31,262 nt of DNA from IMG/VR virus record IMGVR_UViG_3300037551_000020, positions 1 to 31,262 of that record. The stretch is one strand, 5' to 3'. Source of the DNA: a virus. Below the pieces are notes generated by a model that had not been told where the DNA came from, did no database searches, and saw nothing but the letters and a program-made list of their open reading frames with translations. Below are positions 8,680 through 30,332 of the stretch, piece by piece (position 1 is the stretch's first letter; every line of letters starts with the position of its first letter). Position numbers and translations under genes: made by a program.

Positions 8680-9420
8680 ATGTCTGATTTTTCAACTTGG
8701 AGTCCCTACGAAAAGTACGTGCAAGATGGTATGGTGGACGGGAAATTCCTGAATGCAGGATTTACTCTTCTTTGCGCCGGCCCTCCACGATTAGCAGCTT
8801 TGGGTGGTGGTAGCACTGCTACTGGTACAGCTGCACTAGGGACAGCGCTGACTGCAGGTGGTGGGGCCGCCGCAGATCAGTTGGTCTACCCAATCGGCGT
8901 CATCCAAAATGTCAACCTGTCTCATAACCGACAGTTCAATCGGATTTTTGAAGTGGGCTCCGAAAGATCTTACTTCATCTCCGGCCGTACTATCGGTCAA
9001 CTGGCCATCAGCCGTATCCTGTACCACGGACCTAGCTTGCTCCGGGTACTGATGGCCTATTACTCGGATAAGATTGGTGCAACTACCCTCCCAGCTCTAT
9101 TCCCAAATGCTGGCGTAGAAGCCCTAGCAAATCCACATGATGTTGTCATTCCACCAGGATACGACTACCTGTTCTTGAACCTGGCCTCGGACTTGTTCAA
9201 CCAACCGATGGGGCTGCTCATGTACGTACGTGACTCCAACCAGGAGACCTACGGCGCAGTCTACTTGGAAGGTTGCTACATCCCGAACCATACGTGGGCT
9301 ACAGATGCTCAGGGTGTTTTGATCCAAGAGTCTGCTGCTATACAGTTTGAACGAGCAGTACCCGTATCAGTCACCAACCTGACCATCGTTGGAGGAGCTG
9401 GCGGAGTATTGACTACCTAG
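8680..9420 (+). CDS. Probable tail tube protein
   Basis: A 246-residue protein with AAGGAG seven bases before ATG. It follows the sheath gene, separated only by the HNH gene, which is the usual sheath-tube order of myoviruses. The sequence has an N-terminal Gly/Ala-rich loop (about 37-65), then V-I-Q-N-V-N-L-S-H-N-R-Q, then R-S-Y-F-I-S-G-R-T-I-G-Q, then I-S-R-I-L-Y-H-G. This arrangement of a membrane-free beta-barrel core with an R-I-L-Y segment resembles tube proteins of large myoviruses. No catalytic motif is present. The call rests on order and general pattern. Confidence 0.72.
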   Translation: MSDFSTWSPYEKYVQDGMVDGKFLNAGFTLLCAGPPRLAALGGGSTATGTAALGTALTAGGGAAADQLVYPIGVIQNVNLSHNRQFNRIFEVGSERSYFISGRTIGQLAISRILYHGPSLLRVLMAYYSDKIGATTLPALFPNAGVEALANPHDVVIPPGYDYLFLNLASDLFNQPMGLLMYVRDSNQETYGAVYLEGCYIPNHTWATDAQGVLIQESAAIQFERAVPVSVTNLTIVGGAGGVLTT

Positions 9421-10148
9421 TGAGTGGTATGTTTCTTCTTCAGCCGGCCGATCTACTTGAGAAGACTGCAGCTCTACAAGCTGCTGATGCCGCAGGTAAG
9501 ATTCTAGCCCGTAAGTTCAGTAAGGTCTCTGCAGATGACTCTGGTAAAGAGCCAGCTCGTAGAGACCTTGCTGGCATCATGGCTCGTAAGTGGCAGGACC
9601 ATATACCTGGTGGATTGGCGGAAGGAAAGAAGCCTTCAGACTTTCCAGCTGCAGATTTGATCTTAGGTATGACAGTAGAAATGGAACATACCTCAGACCC
9701 ATCTGTAGCCTGTGAAATCGCTATGGACCACTTGACGGAGAAACCTGACTACTACCGTAAAGGTGACATGGCTAAAGAAGTAGCGGAGAGCTTGGGTAAG
9801 GTTGAGGACGGATCAATCACCTTGGCTAAGCAGGCGGGGGTACTAATGGCTTGTATGTCCAAGGAAGCTTGGAACCCTTTAGGAGCCATGAAGAAGTTGG
9901 TTACTCCAGCTCTAGGTAGTCTTGCTAGACCAGCTGTAAAGCGTTTTGGGTGGGGTGAGGCTCTTGCGGCAGGTGGTATAGGAGCCGGGGCCTACGGAGC
10001 TGCTAAGGCTATTCCATGGGCTGCCCGGCAAGTGGAGCAAACCAGTGCTATGCCGCTTGCGTATGGGGGTGGCTGGTCTCCAACTCCTTATGGGTATGGG
10101 TACTCTCCATATGGGTCTGGCGTACAAACCATGGGCCCAGGGGCTTAG
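9420..10148 (+). CDS. DUF5661-containing virion-module protein with LLEKTA tag
   Basis: A 242-residue protein whose GTG start overlaps the previous stop (TAGTGA); ATG 9429 is an alternative. Residues 11-17 read DLLEKTA, a variant of the N-terminal tag of this module. Residues about 62-113 match the DUF5661 pattern: GGLAEGKKPSDF, then V-E-M-E-H-T-S-D-P, then E-I-A-M-D-H-L-T-E and Y-Y. DUF5661 is of unknown function and is found in phages and bacteria. The C-terminal part has hydrophobic Gly/Ala segments (about 180-200) and ends in a Tyr/Gly/Pro-rich low-complexity tail. It lies just after the tube gene, and a terminator follows, so it closes one transcription unit. Confidence 0.72.
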   Translation: MSGMFLLQPADLLEKTAALQAADAAGKILARKFSKVSADDSGKEPARRDLAGIMARKWQDHIPGGLAEGKKPSDFPAADLILGMTVEMEHTSDPSVACEIAMDHLTEKPDYYRKGDMAKEVAESLGKVEDGSITLAKQAGVLMACMSKEAWNPLGAMKKLVTPALGSLARPAVKRFGWGEALAAGGIGAGAYGAAKAIPWAARQVEQTSAMPLAYGGGWSPTPYGYGYSPYGSGVQTMGPGA

Positions 10149-10151
10149 ATT

Positions 10152-10202
10152 CCTTCTTGGGTGTGCCTCCCGTACTCAGCCACGGGAGAGAAGTCAAGAA
10201 GG
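10152..10202 (+). repeat. Two-tier inverted repeat in intergenic leader
   Basis: An outer stem CCTTCTTG/CAAGAAGG (10152-10159, 10195-10202) encloses an inner stem CTCCCGT/ACGGGAG (10167-10173, 10182-10188). The structure lies directly before the intrinsic terminator at 10207-10246. It could be an RNA-processing site, an anti-terminator-like element or part of a tandem terminator. Confidence 0.5.
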
Positions 10203-10206
10203 CCAT

Positions 10207-10246
10207 CCCCACACCAGGACTCGGCCTCTTGGTGTGGGGGTTTCTT
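10207..10246 (+). terminator. Intrinsic terminator after the DUF5661 gene
   Basis: CCCCACACCA (10207-10216) pairs perfectly with TGGTGTGGGG (10230-10239), and GTTTCTT follows. The 10-bp GC-rich stem and short U-rich tail fit a rho-independent terminator on the + strand, ending the tail-gene unit 14 bases before the next ATG. Confidence 0.7.
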
Positions 10247-10259
10247 ACGTAGGTGATTC

Positions 10260-10802
10260 ATGAAGAAGCAAGCCAACCCATTGTTGATGCACATGATGTC
10301 TAATCCTGTGGAGGCAGCTGGTATGGTAGCTGCCGGGAAGATCATGGCTAGCAATGCTCTTCATAGATTTGGAGCGAATATTGCTCCATTCAGGTGGCTG
10401 GGAAAAGAGATAGCAGGGGTAGGTGCAAGAACTGGCATGCAAGGAAAGCCAATGCTATCTAAACCTTTCCGCAATCTAGCCGCGGTCGGTTTAGATCCTC
10501 AGCTCACATCGTTGTATGAGAACGCTCATAAAGCCGGAAGACTTATGGGTCCTGAAGCTGGTGCCCAGCTTCCTTCTATAGTCGGTCAGTTACAACATAA
10601 CCCAGCAGCACTAGAAATGCTGGGAGCCAAGAATTTACGGTTGCTACATGATGTCCCTTTGCAATCTATTGGTATCAGGAAAGCCATAGACTATGGCTTC
10701 ACTCCCGTTTCTCAGGTAGCTTCTGACATTCGTCATGGAGTAGGCAGGCTATTACTTCGGCATGTAGAAGCACCAGGGCAACTGTTGCCGGCTCATTCAT
10801 GA
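10260..10802 (+). CDS. Unassigned protein at the end of the virion module
   Basis: A 180-residue protein starting at ATG 10260, with AGGTG upstream. The N-terminus is Met-rich with an Ala/Gly-rich hydrophobic segment (about residues 16-32: P-V-E-A-A-G-M-V-A-A-G-K-I-M), then basic helical regions. There is no recognised domain. It is the last sizeable + strand gene before the strand switch. The terminator just upstream suggests it is expressed by read-through or separately. Confidence 0.6.
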   Translation: MKKQANPLLMHMMSNPVEAAGMVAAGKIMASNALHRFGANIAPFRWLGKEIAGVGARTGMQGKPMLSKPFRNLAAVGLDPQLTSLYENAHKAGRLMGPEAGAQLPSIVGQLQHNPAALEMLGAKNLRLLHDVPLQSIGIRKAIDYGFTPVSQVASDIRHGVGRLLLRHVEAPGQLLPAHS

Positions 10803-10861
10803 TTTTCTTTATCCTTGTACCATTAGCTTTGGGTATTGTGATCTGGTTGTCTGTGCGCTAA
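10799..10861 (+). CDS. 20-residue single-pass membrane peptide
   Basis: The ATG overlaps the previous TGA (ATGA). The peptide reads MIFFILVPLALGIVIWLSVR and ends in TAA. It is one uninterrupted hydrophobic helix with a terminal Arg, as in very small phage membrane peptides. The overlap supports translational coupling. Function is unknown; possibilities are a lysis or membrane accessory peptide. Confidence 0.5.
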   Translation: MIFFILVPLALGIVIWLSVR

Positions 10862-10899
10862 AGAAAAGCTCGGTAGACCACTTATTAAGTGGTCTACCG
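10862..10899 (-). terminator. Strong terminator at the strand-switch point
   Basis: CGGTAGACCACTTA (10871-10884) pairs perfectly with TAAGTGGTCTACCG (10886-10899) around one base. Read on the - strand, AGCTTTTCTTTAG follows, giving a U-rich tail that fits termination of leftward transcripts. On the + strand no U-run follows, though the hairpin may also end + transcripts at this convergent point. Confidence 0.72.
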
Positions 10900-11207
10900 G
10901 CATCTAGAGCTAGTCAATCCCTAGAATGCTTTGCACCTCATAACCTTCTTAAAGACTGGTTATGATTGGCCTCGTGCTGAGAGTTGCACTCACATTTCTG
11001 CCCCTGGTATAGGCTATCACGAGGTGGGAGAGAAACCTTTGGGTTTCTCGAATAGTAATGGCTTCAGCACGTCTTTGCATACGTCTTATGCAAAGCTGGC
11101 GATACCGTGCCGGGCCAATTTTTTACCTTGTTGGACATCTGATCTCACTGCAGTGAGTACCGTCCATCGATGCCAACAAAGTACCAAGTTTTTCTCTTGG
11201 CAATATT

Positions 11208-11236: not shown

Positions 11237-11491
11237 CTAGTTGAGCTTTGCCGCTATTTCCGCCCCTGTTTGCAGCCAGATCACAAACTCCGGCAAGGGC
11301 ATTAGGCCCTTATGGTCGTCGCCGCACGGGCATTTGATCTCGAACCCGACACATACTTCTTGCAGCCTTTTGTGTACTCCGACCTTGACTACTTTGATAG
11401 TAGTGCCGGGAAGAGAGATGGTATGTCCTGCCATCTGTCTCCAATCCCGCCACTCTCCATCATAGAGATACGTGAAGCATGGTTCTTTCAT
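11237..11491 (-). CDS. Small protein with Cys/His cluster
   Basis: An 84-residue protein whose ATG overlaps the upstream stop (ATGA), so it is translated with its neighbour. It has Y-L-Y-D-G-E-W-R-D-W near the N-terminus, a beta-rich middle, and KCPCGDDHKG (about residues 53-62), a plausible metal site. The C-terminal helix reads L-P-E-F-V-I-W-L-Q. No family is recognised. It is the last protein gene of the leftward accessory block. Confidence 0.65.
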   Translation of the reverse strand: MKEPCFTYLYDGEWRDWRQMAGHTISLPGTTIKVVKVGVHKRLQEVCVGFEIKCPCGDDHKGLMPLPEFVIWLQTGAEIAAKLN

Positions 11492-11817
11492 GACTGCTCC
11501 AATGTATCATGTTTACCGGTGCAGTAGGTAGTATGATCATGGAGTATAACAGGTCTGCCACACTTATGGCAGTTGCTCACGTGCGTGATTGAGCAGTAGT
11601 TACCAAGATCTTTGTAGACTGGTCCTGACATGTGCTTTCTGGCACGCTGGATAGCTTCTCGCAGGTTGTCGTAGCCCTCCACCCAGGTCATACGTTGGTA
11701 CTTGATGTATGCCTTTCCGAACTTGATGAGGGCTTTGCCGAAGTCATCTCCGGCATCAAACAAGTGGTCTAGTGACTCCATGAATTCGTTCATGGTCTTG
11801 ATACTATTAGGTCGCAT
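11488..11817 (-). CDS. Small zinc-binding accessory protein
   Basis: I chose ATG 11817 (109 residues) because AAGGAG lies six bases upstream; an in-frame TTG at 11841 lacks a site. The N-terminal two thirds is helical with F-G-K-A-L-I-K-F-G-K-A-Y. The C-terminus carries CSITHVSNCHKCGRP and then H-x-H...Y-C, a Cys/His-rich zinc finger. A GGTATAAG box stands 54 bases upstream, so this is the first gene of a two-gene unit. Confidence 0.7.
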   Translation of the reverse strand: MRPNSIKTMNEFMESLDHLFDAGDDFGKALIKFGKAYIKYQRMTWVEGYDNLREAIQRARKHMSGPVYKDLGNYCSITHVSNCHKCGRPVILHDHTTYCTGKHDTLEQS

Positions 11818-11870
11818 GGGGTTCTCCTTGTTGGGGTTCAATCGGGGTTAACACTTCCCTGATCAGTATC

Positions 11871-11878
11871 CTTATACC
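11871..11878 (-). promoter_or_regulatory. GGTATAAG promoter box
   Basis: The - strand reads CGGGTATAAGGATACTGATC. The box lies between the end of the 11902 gene and the start of the 11817 gene, in one of the few gaps of this block. No TTGACA-like -35 is seen at 16-18 bases, suggesting an extended -10 type or a phage-specific factor. Confidence 0.6.
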
Positions 11879-11901
11879 CGTTTAGGAGTCTAACTTGCGA
11901 T

Positions 11902-12405
11902 CTAAGGAAGCCCATTTTCAGGTACTGCACTATGCCGAAATCCGTCTTTTTGTGTCCAAGTTACTAGTAGCACTGCATCTGGGTAGAGGAAGAAGAATCC
12001 ATAAGGCAGCGGTTTTCGTGTTTTCCACATTCTTAAAAATTTTCCACGTGTGCCCCGTATACGCTTATAGAAACTCTTGAAGTGCATAAGATGCTGGCTT
12101 CTTGGTTTGTATGGTTGAGTTGTGATTGACGTCACTTTCGTTAAATCTAAGTGACGAACCGGCGACGGTTGTTTAGTTAGATCAGCCTCATCAGCTAATT
12201 GCTGTCTGAGTGCTTTAAGTGGATCGTAGAAGTCAGTATGTCCAGTACTAATGCTTACCATCCACCGACCATTAACTTTTTCAACATCTCGTAGTGCAAA
12301 ACGATGTGGACGTAGCACTTTTCCAAGTTTGCGCACTTTTTTGATATCTGACCTGGCCGAAGAGCTGTTAGATCTTTTCACTGTTTGCATGATCAGTTCT
12401 TTCAA
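11902..12405 (-). CDS. Basic unassigned protein
   Basis: A 167-residue protein. A TTG start at 12405 overlaps the upstream stop as TTGA, matching the coupling style of the region; ATG 12390 (162 residues) is an alternative with a weak GAAAG site. The N-terminal 35 residues are Ser/Lys/Arg-rich. The middle has G-R-W-M-V-S-I-S and D-F-Y-D-P-L-K-A-L. The C-terminus is strongly basic, then hydrophobic (G-F-F-F-L-Y-P-D-A-V-L-L-V-T). It may bind nucleic acid, but no fold is recognised. Confidence 0.6.
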   Translation of the reverse strand: MKELIMQTVKRSNSSSARSDIKKVRKLGKVLRPHRFALRDVEKVNGRWMVSISTGHTDFYDPLKALRQQLADEADLTKQPSPVRHLDLTKVTSITTQPYKPRSQHLMHFKSFYKRIRGTRGKFLRMWKTRKPLPYGFFFLYPDAVLLVTWTQKDGFRHSAVPENGLP

Positions 12406-12899
12406 GAGTGGTTCACAGAGCTGTAGAAATCTTCAGCATCCGTGTTCTCGAGCGTCCGCTTTTCTTCCGGATATAGACCATCTTCCATCTCATCTTGAGT
12501 CCGCACAAAGGACGGTCTTGTATCTCCCCGGCCACTCTTCTGGGCCTTAGGCTTTGCTGTGCCACCGGCAGCTAGATGGTGAGCCATATGATCTAACATC
12601 ATCTTGTCATCTCTATCTAGCGCGTTGAACGTCTTGGTACCTATCAAAAGCTCAGTGGCTAGAACTCTCTCATCTGGTGTGAGCTTCTCGTCTTCCATCA
12701 ACTCCCCAAGTGCATTCTCATCATGCCCGTACAGGTCTTCGAAGAGTGTGCGGGAAACTAGATCAGATTTTTCCTTCACCAGCTCCTCCGGAGATTGAGG
12801 AGCTGGTGCCATAGCAGCTAGGTAGTCCTTGGTGGTGCCGAAGAGTGGGCATTTCTGCCAGGAGTGACCTGGGGTGGAACATAGTAGGCATCTAATCAT
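12402..12899 (-). CDS. Protein with N-terminal CCHC zinc knuckle
   Basis: A 165-residue protein. Residues 4-17 read CLLCSTPGHSWQKC, an exact C-x2-C-x4-H-x4-C zinc knuckle (C4, C7, H12, C17), the type that binds single-stranded RNA or DNA in retroviral nucleocapsids. A Pro/Ala linker is followed by acidic, helical sequence (about 40-115) and a polar disordered tail (about 118-165). The ATG overlaps the end of the upstream gene by eight bases. A role in binding single-stranded nucleic acid is inferred from the knuckle. Confidence 0.75.
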   Translation of the reverse strand: MIRCLLCSTPGHSWQKCPLFGTTKDYLAAMAPAPQSPEELVKEKSDLVSRTLFEDLYGHDENALGELMEDEKLTPDERVLATELLIGTKTFNALDRDDKMMLDHMAHHLAAGGTAKPKAQKSGRGDTRPSFVRTQDEMEDGLYPEEKRTLENTDAEDFYSSVNHS

Positions 12900-13134
12900 C
12901 GGGGTTTACCAATAGTCCTATGGTACGCTTTTCATAGTAAGATGTCACTAAGGCACGGATGATGTCTTGCGCGTTGACTCTCCTGGCGCCTGCTTTGATC
13001 TGACGCTTTTTATCCGTGAGGCGTCTAGCTTCCATATCTAGGAAGTGTCGCATTTGCGGGGATAGAAAAGTTGCGAATGCTCTGTTTATACGTTCTATCC
13101 GCTCTTCTTCGGACCTATGCGTTTTGCGGGGCAT
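12892..13134 (-). CDS. Small basic helical protein, possibly DNA-binding
   Basis: An 80-residue protein, N-terminally charged (R-S-E-E-E-R-I-E-R-I-N-R). It has a basic middle and a final helix, V-N-A-Q-D-I-I-R-A-L-V-T-S-Y-Y-E. The shape recalls small ribbon-helix-helix or other helical DNA-binding proteins, but no motif is decisive. It overlaps the 13675 gene by 20 bases at its start and the zinc-knuckle gene by eight at its end, so the three are translated together. Confidence 0.6.
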   Translation of the reverse strand: MPRKTHRSEEERIERINRAFATFLSPQMRHFLDMEARRLTDKKRQIKAGARRVNAQDIIRALVTSYYEKRTIGLLVNPDD

Positions 13135-13675
13135 TTGAGGAATCCCCTAGAATGGTGTTGGCTATAGCACCTATTTTGATACCGTTTTCGTACAAGATTA
13201 GCCAGTTCTTTTCAGTACCAGTAGCGTATAGCTTGACTGATATATCGCCGCTGCATGCTTCAGTAAGTATCTGCCAATACGAAACATGGTATGCGAAGCG
13301 GTTGCCATCGACACTAAAGATCATACAGGGACAAGGATGTTTCTTGTCTTCAAACATCATGTCTCGCTCTTCGTCCGTAGGGTCTACTTCTTCAGCATCC
13401 AGGTACCTAGTCTTGTCTGGTGCTAAGATCTTAGACCACGCTCCCTCTTCAAACTTCTTTATGATGCTAGGACTTTCCAGCCTGTTCCGATTGATCATTT
13501 TTCTAACTTCGTTGCTATCTAAGTCGGCTAATTCTAAAGGCCAAGCAATTAAGAAATGTCTGTTGGTCAATATCAACAGCGTGTCTTTTTTGACTGCATA
13601 TGGAATCTTAACTGTTGGGCTTTGCTCACATAGCCGCTCTATACGCCTTGCTTGTCCCTCATCTAGTCTTCTCAT
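13115..13675 (-). CDS. Unassigned protein, first gene of its unit
   Basis: A 186-residue protein with GGAGG just before ATG 13675. The N-terminal region reads A-R-R-I-E-R-L-C-E-Q; a beta segment follows (T-L-L-I-L-T-N-R-H-F-L-I-A-W), then an acidic middle with CPCM near 114-117, then a C-terminal beta-rich part (N-W-L-I-L-Y-E-N-G-I-K-I-G-A). No family is recognised. It is the first gene after a terminator (13750-13783) and a promoter-like box inside an inverted repeat (13696-13726). Confidence 0.6.
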   Translation of the reverse strand: MRRLDEGQARRIERLCEQSPTVKIPYAVKKDTLLILTNRHFLIAWPLELADLDSNEVRKMINRNRLESPSIIKKFEEGAWSKILAPDKTRYLDAEEVDPTDEERDMMFEDKKHPCPCMIFSVDGNRFAYHVSYWQILTEACSGDISVKLYATGTEKNWLILYENGIKIGAIANTILGDSSNAPQNA

Positions 13676-13695
13676 GCTCCTCCATGTTATTGGTT

Positions 13696-13726
13696 AAGTA
13701 CCATCGGTTAACATGGTACTTATGCC
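13696..13726 (-). promoter_or_regulatory. Promoter-like GGCATAAG box abutting an inverted-repeat operator
   Basis: AAGTACCAT (13696-13704) and ATGGTACTT (13713-13721) are perfect 9-bp arms around CGGTTAAC. The outer arm overlaps GGCATAAG on the - strand (13726-13719), a one-base variant of the leftward promoter box. The placement, right after an intrinsic terminator and 45 bases before a start codon, fits a regulated promoter with a repressor site over the start point. It could instead be a 5' mRNA hairpin. Confidence 0.5.
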
Positions 13727-13749
13727 TTGTTTTCGAGCATTTTTGTACG

Positions 13750-13783
13750 GCAAAAGAAAAGGGCCTGGCAATGCGCCAGGCCC
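13750..13783 (-). terminator. Intrinsic terminator
   Basis: GGGCCTGGC (13761-13769) and GCCAGGCCC (13775-13783) form a perfect 9-bp GC-rich stem with a five-base loop. On the - strand TTTTCTTTTGCC follows directly. This is a textbook rho-independent terminator, 19 bases after the stop of the 13802 gene. Confidence 0.88.
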
Positions 13784-13801
13784 TCTCTTGATCAACTACA
13801 G

Positions 13802-14080
13802 CTAGGAGGCTTTCTCTGCCTGCTGTCGTCGTTTAGCAGCTCGGCAATCCTTGCATCTCCTTGGGGTCTTGTAATCCTTTCCGATCTTCTCGGAAAAGAA
13901 CTCATGATCTGCGGATGTGAAATTGAAATCATTTCCGCAGTCAGCACACCTGATGATCAGGTCCTTGAAATCAGATGTTGGTGCTGTTGCAGGTTCTGGA
14001 GGAAACTTGGGGTCTGGAAATCTCTCGTTATCCCACGGTTCATCAAATTCTCTTGACTTTCTTCGCTCGCGTTCAGACAT
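13802..14080 (-). CDS. Zinc-ribbon protein (zf-trcl-like)
   Basis: I chose ATG 14080 (92 residues) because GAGG lies six bases upstream. ATG 14167 overlaps the preceding stop as ATGA but would add an atypical hydrophobic leader. The C-terminal half has RCADCGNDFNFTS, then F-F-S-E-K, then TPRRCKDCRAAKR. This is the C-x2-C-G...F-T...P-x-R-C-x2-C-R pattern of the probable zinc-ribbon family zf-trcl. The N-terminus is charged and Pro-rich. Function of the family is unknown; a role in binding nucleic acid or protein is plausible. It is the last gene before a strong terminator. Confidence 0.72.
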   Translation of the reverse strand: MSERERRKSREFDEPWDNERFPDPKFPPEPATAPTSDFKDLIIRCADCGNDFNFTSADHEFFSEKIGKDYKTPRRCKDCRAAKRRQQAEKAS

Positions 14081-14163
14081 TAGTACCTCGGATGTATGTT
14101 GAAAGACTTGAATGGTGTGTTGGAGTATGACTGGAATAAGTCTTCCAGAGAATCTAGTCATCC

Positions 14164-15270
14164 TCATGTTGTTGGCAATGGTAGCAGACTTGTGAACTCT
14201 TTGTCACGTGCTGTCGGACCAAAAGATTTGATCCATACTCTGGGGCCTATGACAAGATGCTCGATAGTTCCTAGTACGTTGTATATCGAGGCGTTGTCTA
14301 TGTCCTTGTAGTGTGGTGTGTAGCGCTCAAGTACTTTTGCCCGCATGGATGTGTCTACTAGCCTTAGCTGGCGTGATAGCATTTGCAGATCTTTTGAGTA
14401 GTTACCTGCTTGGTACTCATCTGAATATGTCCACACACCTCCTCGATCTATTTGATCTAGATGGGTGATGGCCAACCCATCTATGGGAAGATCTTCGGAG
14501 CATGCATCTAGCGCGTACCTGCAGAGGCTCATGTCGAAGAACCCCGTACGGAGTGCACCCTGCCATCTGTTCGTAGGATTGTATTTGTCAGGAAATGCAG
14601 CGGTCCTGCCACCACTGAAAGTAGGAAATGGCCCACGTCCATGTCTTGTTGGGTAGGCGTCGAGCCACAGAGCAAGGCGATGTCTTTGACCTTCCGTGGT
14701 CAACCCACTGCACGGTTCATTCGTGGACCCCGTGCAGAGGCCTTGGTCCCAAGTCGTATCACCCCCGGCAATGAGTTTGGGAAGATACTTCATGAAGTGG
14801 TCTGCATCAGGTGCTTCAGCTAGCTTCCTGAGTACAGTAGCTTCGTTCTTGATGAGGTCAGAGTCTCCTGCATCGCTCGCTATCTTGAGTACTACCTTCT
14901 TGCCGTCAAGTCGGCCTGTGTACAAGTCAGCAATGTCTCCCCTTGTCAGGGGCTCCAGCTCTTCGATGGTCCTGTTTGTTTTGCGGTCCTTGAAGGTGAC
15001 AGTAGCTAGGCTCTTGCCGAATGTACCGTCAGCTATTTTCCTTTCCGCATCCTCATGAAGTATGTTGAGGGCGGCTAGTACAAGATTGGCTTCTTCTACT
15101 CCAGGATTATGATCTGGGTGTACCAACTTGGCCATACCCTGATACCTCTTCTTCAGCATCCTTTCTTGCGTGGCTTTGGTTGTGCCAATGCCGATGAAGA
15201 AGTCTTCGGCTCTCCTGGCCTCTTTGATTTTGTTGATGAACGGTTGCTTCGCTTCGGTCCATTTTGCCAT
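14164..15270 (-). CDS. Chimera: J domain, kinase N-lobe-like segment and C-terminal half of PurA/PurZ
   Basis: A 368-residue protein in three parts. Residues about 18-80 form a J domain with HPD at 51-53. Residues about 108-168 look like a protein-kinase N-lobe: G-D-I-A-D-L-Y-T-G-R, VVLKIA with K129, and NEATVL with E143. No kinase catalytic loop follows. From about 177 the sequence follows adenylosuccinate synthetase: T-G-S-T-N (179-183), AYPTRHGRGPFPTF (205-218), then RTGFFDMSLCRYA (241-253), IDGLAITHLD (263-272), and near the end FGPTARDK (350-357), comparable to the family's closing G-P-x-R segment. The synthetase N-terminus, with the GDEGKG nucleotide loop, is absent from the window, so synthetase activity is unlikely. 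An in-frame deletion that fused two genes is the simplest reading. Confidence 0.75.
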   Translation of the reverse strand: MAKWTEAKQPFINKIKEARRAEDFFIGIGTTKATQERMLKKRYQGMAKLVHPDHNPGVEEANLVLAALNILHEDAERKIADGTFGKSLATVTFKDRKTNRTIEELEPLTRGDIADLYTGRLDGKKVVLKIASDAGDSDLIKNEATVLRKLAEAPDADHFMKYLPKLIAGGDTTWDQGLCTGSTNEPCSGLTTEGQRHRLALWLDAYPTRHGRGPFPTFSGGRTAAFPDKYNPTNRWQGALRTGFFDMSLCRYALDACSEDLPIDGLAITHLDQIDRGGVWTYSDEYQAGNYSKDLQMLSRQLRLVDTSMRAKVLERYTPHYKDIDNASIYNVLGTIEHLVIGPRVWIKSFGPTARDKEFTSLLPLPTT

Positions 15271-15701
15271 TTCTTGTTTTGCCTTTCATGTATTTGATCT
15301 GCTTTCCACGCCTCAGATCTTAGTGGAACCAATACTGCGGAGTCCTTAAAATCGTAAGATGGTCGTAGTCTCTTTGTAAAACGAGCATCTTTCCACATGT
15401 ATGGAAAGGCAAACCTGTGGTGGTACTGCCTGGCTGTGAAGTCTATGACAATACCTTCTGCTATAGCTACCCAGTGGGCTGTAACTCCCACCCCCGCACA
15501 GTATTTCCTGTAGCGTCTGTGGCTACCTGCGGCTGCTACACCAGCTCTGATTCCTACACTGCAGGCAAGTTGGGCAAACTTACGTGAGATGTCCCAACAT
15601 TCTCCGGCAGCATAGTATTGCTCTTCTAGGTTGTTGTGGTCTTTGGCAAATTGCTTGATGAGCCGGCGGAGCTTGAGAGGTAGTACTGCCTTCAGTAACA
15701 T
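15153..15701 (-). CDS. Transglutaminase-like/papain-fold protein with Cys-His-Asp triad
   Basis: A 182-residue protein. C35 in GECWDIS, H76 in TAHWVAI and D87 in VIDFTARQY are spaced as in transglutaminase-like or papain-like folds, where they form the catalytic triad. Such proteins occur in phages as putative peptidases or amidases. The last 40 residues are basic and low complexity and are encoded entirely in the 118-base overlap with the J-domain gene. An overlap this long is unusual here and may reflect loss of an earlier stop. The enzymatic class is inferred from the triad pattern. Confidence 0.65.
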   Translation of the reverse strand: MLLKAVLPLKLRRLIKQFAKDHNNLEEQYYAAGECWDISRKFAQLACSVGIRAGVAAAGSHRRYRKYCAGVGVTAHWVAIAEGIVIDFTARQYHHRFAFPYMWKDARFTKRLRPSYDFKDSAVLVPLRSEAWKADQIHERQNKKWQNGPKRSNRSSTKSKRPGEPKTSSSALAQPKPRKKGC

Positions 15702-24376: not shown

Positions 24377-24871
24377 TCATTCCTCAGACAAATCGCCTAC
24401 GGGCTCATCTGAGGGTCTGTAAAGGTCCACTATGATGTCTCTCCTTGCCGCGAATCTATCTCTGATGAGCTTCTCTACGTCTTCCCACTTGAGCCCGCCT
24501 AGCCCACACCCAAGTGGTGGTATTGCTACACTCTCAATTCGGTGATTGGTGAGACACTCTACTAAGGAATCAAGACCTGCCTCAATGTAGATTAGCTTGC
24601 TCTTGTCCCGCCAATCATCCTTGGTGGGGAAGTTTATGATCCATTTGGGATTACCTAGTCTACCTGTGGGGAAGATGTGAAGCTTCCCTGGTCGTAATAG
24701 ACCAGCCTTACAAATATTCGTGTAAGTGTAGAAGTTAGATGGCCATGCTCGGCGGAATAGAAGATCGAGACCTCTTCTAGCTACACCCACACAGTTTACA
24801 GGATTGACCAAAGCCTGAACATTGGCTTTGAGTATGTTGCCTATGCGCTCAATTATCACACTAGCCTCCAT
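24377..24871 (-). CDS. Macro domain protein, DarG/TARG1 type
   Basis: A 164-residue protein covering one macro domain. NPVNCVGVARRGLDLLF (23-39) is the nucleotide-binding start, INFPTKDDWR (79-88) holds K84 in the position of the catalytic lysine of DarG/TARG1 enzymes, and PPLGCGLGGLKW (118-129) is the second phosphate-binding loop. Such domains remove ADP-ribose from DNA or protein. DarG reverses DNA ADP-ribosylation by the toxin DarT, an anti-phage system. Usual relatives read V-G-V-M-G-K-G; here A-R-R-G replaces it. A phage copy without a DarT gene nearby suggests a counter-defence role or NAD-derivative processing. The family is confident; the role is inferred. Confidence 0.85.
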   Translation of the reverse strand: MEASVIIERIGNILKANVQALVNPVNCVGVARRGLDLLFRRAWPSNFYTYTNICKAGLLRPGKLHIFPTGRLGNPKWIINFPTKDDWRDKSKLIYIEAGLDSLVECLTNHRIESVAIPPLGCGLGGLKWEDVEKLIRDRFAARRDIIVDLYRPSDEPVGDLSEE

Positions 24872-25526
24872 TTCCCATCAGTAATCCGCGGGGAAGAACG
24901 GGATTCCACATTGGTAGTTCTCCTGCACCTTCACACTTCGTGCATGTATGGCACTCGATGTACCTGCCCGCTATAAACATGAGCCCATGGCATGTCTGGC
25001 ATCTATTCGTCCAAGTTTTCTCTACATGCCAACCTGCGCCCTTGCATGGGTAGCACACTCCTATCTTCTTACCATTCTTTGAGAACTCCCCCGTACCACC
25101 ACACTTGCGGCATCTGTACTCGTATCTACCACCTATGCGGGCGTGATGAAAGAGACCAGAGAACCCAAAGTTGGTTCGGCAATCAGGGCAAGGCTTATCT
25201 AGCTGATGAATGGTGCTGTACCCAACACCATGGCACACAGTACAAGTAGTACCGTTGGTTGTAGGTCCAAGCCCGGTGCCCAATGATGAGATATCATCTC
25301 CTTCTACTGTGTGGGTGACTGTTACTATCTCTTGCTCAAGGATGGTGTTATCATCCTTGAGTAGTAGATAAGCCTCGTTCACCCTAGCAAAACGTTCCTT
25401 GGCTTGGGGATGCTTGCTCAAGTCTGGATGTTCAAGCTTAGAGAGGCGGCGGTAAGAAGTCTTCAGGGCGTTAGCTGTTGTGGGTGTTGTCAGTTGTAGG
25501 AGTTTCAATGCTTCCGCTACTATCAT
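24861..25526 (-). CDS. DnaJ-like co-chaperone with six CxxC motifs
   Basis: A 221-residue protein with AAGGA upstream of ATG 25526. An N-terminal J domain has HPD at 33-35 and F-A-R-V-N-E-A-Y. A cysteine-rich region follows with pairs at C95/C98 (CTVCHGVG), C113/C116, C139/C142 (CRKCGGTG), C158/C161 (CYPCKGAG), C176/C179 and C195/C198 (CTKCEGAG). Bacterial DnaJ has four such repeats; six is more than usual. The C-terminal substrate domains of DnaJ are missing. It may recruit the host Hsp70 (DnaK) for phage assembly or replication. It overlaps the macro-domain gene by 11 bases. Confidence 0.85.
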   Translation of the reverse strand: MIVAEALKLLQLTTPTTANALKTSYRRLSKLEHPDLSKHPQAKERFARVNEAYLLLKDDNTILEQEIVTVTHTVEGDDISSLGTGLGPTTNGTTCTVCHGVGYSTIHQLDKPCPDCRTNFGFSGLFHHARIGGRYEYRCRKCGGTGEFSKNGKKIGVCYPCKGAGWHVEKTWTNRCQTCHGLMFIAGRYIECHTCTKCEGAGELPMWNPVLPRGLLMGNGG

Positions 25527-30005: not shown

Positions 30006-30332
30006 CTACCTCAGCTTTGCTATGATCCTACTATACTCTTCTTCAGTGAAGTGAATGTTCTTGATCATGTATTTGCAATCCGTGCAATCCGTGCAACCCT
30101 TGCAATCCATGCAACGAGTGCAATCCGTGCAACGAGTGCAATCCGTGCAACGAATGCAATCCGTGCAATCCGTGCAATCCGTGCAATCCGTGCAACCCGT
30201 GCAACCCGTGCAACCCGTGCAATCCGTGCAACCCGTGCAATCCGTGCAATCCGTGCAACGAGTGTTTTCAAGATTCAAAAGGATCTTGAGTTCTTCTGGA
30301 CTTGCGTTAAGTATCTGTTCTTTTGTCACCAT
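30006..30332 (-). CDS. Cys-x-x triplet-repeat protein
   Basis: A 108-residue protein with AGGAG eight bases before ATG 30332. A helical N-terminus of about 24 residues ([12 protein letters not shown]) leads into 21 cysteines spaced exactly every third residue (C-T-D, C-T-G, C-T-R and similar). A polar C-terminus follows, including E-E-E-Y-S-R-I. Strict Cys-x-x spacing over about 60 residues suggests a regular triangular coil holding metal clusters or disulphides, or a metal-storage or redox-buffer peptide. No known fold is assigned. The encoding DNA is a 9-bp tandem repeat that can change copy number. Confidence 0.75.
30074..30262. repeat. 21 tandem 9-bp units inside the Cys-x-x gene
   Basis: TGCAATCCG alternates with near variants (TGCAACCCG, TGCAACGAG, TGCAACGAA) for 21 units in frame. 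Units differ mainly in the third amino acid (Asp, Gly, Arg). Substitutions show that the array has diverged by point changes as well as duplication. Confidence 0.9.

Follow-up and report, generated by a model that had tools for sequence, protein, structure and literature searches.

How a single phage reading frame came to begin as a J-domain protein and to end as an adenylosuccinate synthetase is the question raised by the locus at 14164-15270 of the virus record IMGVR_UViG_3300037551_000020, positions 1 to 31,262 of which (31,262 bp, hereafter the window) were analysed. The open reading frame proposed in the initial annotation is confirmed as real and lies on the minus strand, with an ATG at 15270, 368 codons between 14167 and 15270, and a stop codon at 14164-14166. 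Comparison with L002 (IMGVR_UViG_3300031712_000052), a related 133.5 kb phage contig found by search of viral contigs, divides the frame into three segments, all on the minus strand: residues 1-167 of a J-domain kinase-like protein (J-kinase), comprising the J domain and kinase elements β1-β3 and αC (14769-15270, by homology to L002); a 110 bp junction filler that is read through in frame (14659-14768, 37 codons); and the C-terminal 164 residues of an adenylosuccinate synthetase (14167-14658, by homology to L002 and family models). The start of the fused frame is overlapped by an upstream minus-strand frame (15153-15701), a diverged homologue of an L002 gene (44.6% over 101 aa), and downstream lies a minus-strand gene for a treble-clef zinc protein (PF13451; 13802-14167), in the same order as in L002.

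The membership of the C-terminal segment in the PurA/PurZ family, which had been proposed from its motifs, is borne out by several comparisons. Residues 205-357 of the fusion match PHROG_1211 (E 2e-6) and the segment also matches Pfam PF00709 (E 5.8e-4, below cut-off); tblastn finds matches in 190 mycobacteriophage records at about 33% identity, the intact L002 synthetase aligns with 64.8% identity over 162 residues (E 9e-68), and the fusion, when modelled with AlphaFold, matches solved structures of adenylosuccinate synthetases (E 1e-7). The model is confident between residues ~200 and 360 (pLDDT mostly 75-90) and mostly below 50 in the filler, and the J-domain half is modelled poorly because only two sequences represent it. 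The C-terminal motifs typical of PurA (TRxGxGPFPT, RxGxxD, TxLD and GPT) are retained as TRHGRGPFPT, RTGFFD, THLD and GPTARD, and the N-terminal elements of the active enzyme (GDEGKG, the catalytic Asp13 and His41) are absent from the fusion and present in the L002 synthetase. Loss of the GDEGKG part had been correctly noted, but the remainder is not a C-terminal half: it begins at residue 302 of 467, so that the parent has lost its first 301 residues and 35% of it is left.

At the other end of the protein, the J domain that had been placed at the start of the frame is supported by a match to Pfam DnaJ (E 4.6e-5, below the curated cut-off) and by an HPD motif at residues 51-53, the hallmark of J-domain proteins when it lies within a helical J domain. 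Scores below cut-off for both Pfam families are expected of fragments of diverged proteins. The DNA of 14769-15270 is 88.4% identical to L002 10001-10502, and the protein identity of 89% extends over residues 1-167 only. The kinase is identified through its intact L002 homologue (phrog_3043 kinase, E 4e-32; Pkinase, E 1.6e-5), and the alignment indicates that β1-β3 and the αC helix are all that remain; the earlier description of a kinase-like N-lobe without its C-lobe is therefore right about the kinase, but less than a full N-lobe is present. The catalytic loop with HRD and the DFG region, by which a protein kinase is recognized, are both deleted. Elsewhere in the window, the minus-strand gene at 24861-25526 encodes another J-domain protein, which also has a Cys-rich zinc domain of DnaJ type (PF00226, PF00684). 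Two further minus-strand genes were observed: one for a macro-domain protein close to DarG (24377-24871; PADLOC E 4e-61, Pfam Macro E 1e-20), a possible phage counter to the DNA-modifying toxin DarT, and one at 30006-30332 in which a 9-bp repeat, present about 20 times, encodes TDC/TGC triplets and hence a very Cys-rich protein.

In L002 the two parents are separate and intact genes in this position, as the initial annotation had predicted for a relative. They are a J-kinase of 361 aa (10001-11086), a MIDAS-motif protein of 326 aa (phrog_2971; 11281-12261), a small open reading frame of 175 aa (12375-12902), and an adenylosuccinate synthetase of 467 aa (12899-14302). The window is collinear with L002 from 8.7 to 23.0 kb, with flanks that remain so over more than 14 kb. 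Window 14769-15270 aligns with L002 10502-10001 and window 12411-14658 with L002 16051-13802 (74%), and the 3,299 bp between them in L002 (10503-13801) are missing, with 110 bp standing in their place. Only the ends of the first and third genes of the J-kinase/MIDAS-protein/PurA-like cassette are left, and no trace of the kinase C-terminal part, the second gene, the N-terminal part of the synthetase or other lost genes was found elsewhere in the window. The homology and position of both parts, the intact order in the relative and the absence of 3.3 kb from the record are direct observations. The window record is a fragment, and an intact synthetase may be present elsewhere in the same phage. 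The two phages also differ markedly in the length of the gene at 9420-10148 (plus strand), with 242 aa in the window and 502 aa in the L002 homologue.

We consider it probable, at roughly 0.78, that the fused frame is the recent, non-enzymatic remnant of a collinear phage cassette that collapsed by deletion or illegitimate recombination. The ancestral order would have been a J-domain kinase-like gene, the gene for the MIDAS-motif protein, a small open reading frame (in L002), and a PurA-type synthetase gene. A deletion in this lineage, or illegitimate recombination between two related phages, would then have removed the span from inside the first gene, just after the kinase αC, to inside the last, at synthetase residue 302; 110 bp of unrelated DNA would have been left or inserted, with the frame staying open by chance, and the product would be a recent remnant that is neither synthetase nor kinase. 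This interpretation draws on the intact, separate genes in the same place in L002 with collinear flanks, on the recurrence of this gene order in Bixzunaviruses and at most of the 84 loci described below, on the lack of any trace of the lost parts elsewhere in the window, and on the finding that 36 of the 46 residues invariant among the intact synthetases of the clade fall within the deleted part. Against it, the join is present in one record, the simplest deletion would not leave a 110-bp insert flanked by two in-frame arms, and a fully open reading frame with low dN/dS in both arms also fits a selected protein.

The junction bears out only in part the proposal of an in-frame deletion joining two genes directly at about 14740-14770. 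The junction region and the deletion fusion both hold, but the joining was not a clean one: homology to L002 ends at 14769 on the N-terminal side and starts at 14658 on the synthetase side, and the 110 bp between are unmatched. The G+C content of this filler, ~61% compared to 48% for the window, ranks within the top 0.6% among stretches of 111 bp, and an 8-bp inverted repeat, CTGCACGG...CCGTGCAG, lies within it. The filler has no coding-like periodicity in codon-position G+C, and no detectable homology to the L002 sequences into which either arm should have continued. No match was obtained in L002, other parts of the window, phages, viral contigs or Rfam, plasmids gave matches only at E about 4, and exact-word searches of viral contigs and bacterial genomes were negative; derivation from a known RNA or from the DNA of phages, plasmids or bacteria was thus set aside. 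Decayed synthetase or kinase sequence, frameshifted or not, was also rejected: a TTW match with roughly the expected spacing seemed suggestive, but was supported neither by anchored alignments, nor by local alignments compared with shuffles, nor by an HMM test.

The fused protein is not expected to catalyze either parental reaction. Lacking the P-loop-like motif, Asp13, His41 and most of the substrate site, it would not be a synthetase, and lacking the kinase catalytic loop and DFG region it would not be a kinase. Because the HPD motif is intact, J-domain function is possible, and judging from the sequence this domain could at most still contact the host DnaK. Relative to L002, dN/dS is 0.11 for the N-terminal part and 0.20 for the C-terminal part, within the range of neighbouring genes; the latter breaks none of the 14 columns that at least 90% of the intact relatives conserve, and fits the synthetase family no worse than the intact L002 protein does. 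There is therefore no sign of relaxed selection on the C-terminal part since the deletion, a test in which recent deletion and retained function look alike. With no conserved column broken, any neutral decay has been short; if evolution has been neutral, fewer than ~0.09 substitutions per site have accumulated since the deletion (95% bound, hand calculation on 14 codons), and the event would be recent, a pattern that retained function would equally produce. The synonymous difference from L002 is 0.35 in the N-terminal part, below the 0.62-0.73 of the C-terminal part and the 0.45-0.75 of most neighbours, which suggests an exchange of the left arm with an L002-like phage and a possible location of the fusion at a mosaic recombination join.

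These data also bear on two other explanations. The cassette could be intact in the virus, its ends having been wrongly joined during assembly or amplification through a short foreign read. The fusion is indeed known from a single record among the viral contigs searched, where only L002 matched, with its genes intact, and no second copy of the junction sequence was found; the foreign-looking G+C content of the filler and its lack of coding periodicity are in keeping with such a read. However, collinearity with L002 over more than 14 kb, a filler lacking detectable homology to the expected continuation of either arm, and a frame held over the entire open reading frame make an artefact unlikely. 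Less likely again is a functional new chimera, expressed and selected, in which for example the J domain delivers the synthetase C-terminal domain as a binding module. The open in-frame reading frame and the low dN/dS of both arms are compatible with this, as are the intact HPD motif, the preservation of all strongly conserved residues in what remains of the synthetase, and the confidently predicted fold of that part; but a recent deletion would show equal conservation, a coding signature is missing from the filler, the synthetase has lost its nucleotide-binding half, and no other example was found in the viral contigs.

One residue bears directly on the suggestion that the parent was PurZ and that an ancestor had 2-aminoadenine (Z) DNA. 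PurA keeps Asp13 (99%), and all 147 phage PurZ proteins have Ser (PMC12884076). This position is deleted in the fusion, but the corresponding motifs are GDSGKG in L002 and GDAGKG in the mycobacteriophage Tonenili, both with Asp13 kept, and the other phage relatives of readable sequence also have Asp (the Ser that seemed present in L072 came from a match lying outside the gene, and the L104 sequence is truncated); intact relatives of the clade keep both Asp13 and His41. By contrast, Ser occupies this position in S-2L PurZ and in five further PurZ/PurZ0 proteins, which form a separate clade (support 100/99). The L002 synthetase scores 154 bits with a PurA model versus 51 with the NCBIfam PurZ model, whose cut-off is 300 bits. 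Neither DpoZ nor a family A DNA polymerase was found in Tonenili or in the 133.5 kb record of L002, which may be incomplete, and YfbR-like and DUF550 proteins gave no match in the same two genomes (no positive control accompanied the search for DUF550, and DatZ may lie outside the reach of PF12917). None of the partner genes datZ, mazZ and dpoZ was detected in either of them, and the genome behind the window is represented by a fragment. The PurZ parent and the Z-DNA ancestor are both unsupported, and descent of the C-terminal part from a Z-genome phage is very improbable, in spite of the frequent annotation of phage PurA-like genes as '2-aminooxy adenylosuccinate synthetase' (PHROG_1211). Because the phage clade keeps Asp13, genes so annotated are not by themselves evidence of Z-DNA.

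The cassette whose collapse we favour recurs in many phages. We gathered 84 loci through the synthetase from viral contigs and Bixzunaviruses, a few contigs being near-duplicates (L002 10001-14302; L028, L038, L039; L005-L026; L040-L119). The order J-kinase, MIDAS-motif protein, synthetase is common among them: the middle gene is present in 79 of the 84 and the J-kinase in 56, with median starts 1.1 kb and 2.2 kb upstream of the synthetase, respectively, and the next most frequent sense-strand families are found at only 11 loci. At 11 of the 84, for example L077 1106-2644, a nicotinamide phosphoribosyltransferase-like family (TDSYKFSH, identified by eye) lies upstream of the synthetase. The groups of annotated phages that have the middle gene are also those that have the synthetase, namely phages of Mycobacterium, Rhizobium and Vibrio, and a search for close relatives of the middle gene in bacteria found none. 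An invariant DxTGS motif of MIDAS type (DVTGS conserved) marks the middle protein; naming it a vWA protein was rejected, since Pfam and PDB searches gave no confirmation beyond that motif. In the Bixzunaviruses ErnieJ and Nappy this gene carries an intein-like insert (L038 4164-5981; L039 6146-7924) that starts with CNTPDAPVW, ends with ...ASSNC, and is absent from Tonenili and L002. The J-kinase family, annotated in mycobacteriophages as 'serine/threonine kinase', was compared in 54 members (L028 3847-4917, L002 10001-11083 and 52 others): the β3 Lys is kept in 50 and the DFG-type Asp in 45, with a DW[CS] motif also kept, but Ala replaces the HRD Asp in 46 (HGA), so that the family may be one of pseudokinases.

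No description of the cassette was found in a limited search of open papers, and it is apparently undescribed so far. Tentatively, and with considerable doubt, the J-kinase-like protein without its HRD Asp, the MIDAS protein and the PurA-type synthetase might form a widespread joint system that perhaps makes an aspartylated nucleotide or modifies a chaperone-held target; the window would then record its loss, perhaps as a natural loss-of-function allele with a J domain that is possibly still active. Fusion of genes by deletion is an ordinary event in phage evolution, and here an intact relative documents the ancestral order. The locus also corrects a tempting inference of Z-DNA from phage PurA-like genes, and points to a three-gene cassette that diverse phages carry. 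Among these are cultured mycobacteriophages, which make the cassette accessible to testing.

Comparison with known systems places the locus closest to the Bixzunaviruses (Bxz1-like, cluster C1 mycobacteriophages), where Tonenili gp106-gp104 comprise the same three families in the same order and strand as in L002. Their kinase, like the N-terminal part encoded in the window, has an N-terminal J domain with HPD, and their synthetase keeps Asp13; they differ from the window in that the genes are intact and separate, with protein identities to L002 of ~30-38%. PurA shares its C-terminal fold and motifs with the fusion, and the phage clade is a branch distinct from E. coli PurA (100/99). The PurZ/PurZ0 enzymes of Z-genome phages (S-2L and phiVC8 type) belong to the same PF00709 superfamily as the phage clade, but are set apart from it by different gene neighbours as well as by their Ser and separate clade. 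J-kinase fusions of the DNAJB1-PRKACA type bear a superficial likeness, with a J domain beside a kinase domain, but are unrelated, the phage J-kinase being a native architecture and not a fusion product.
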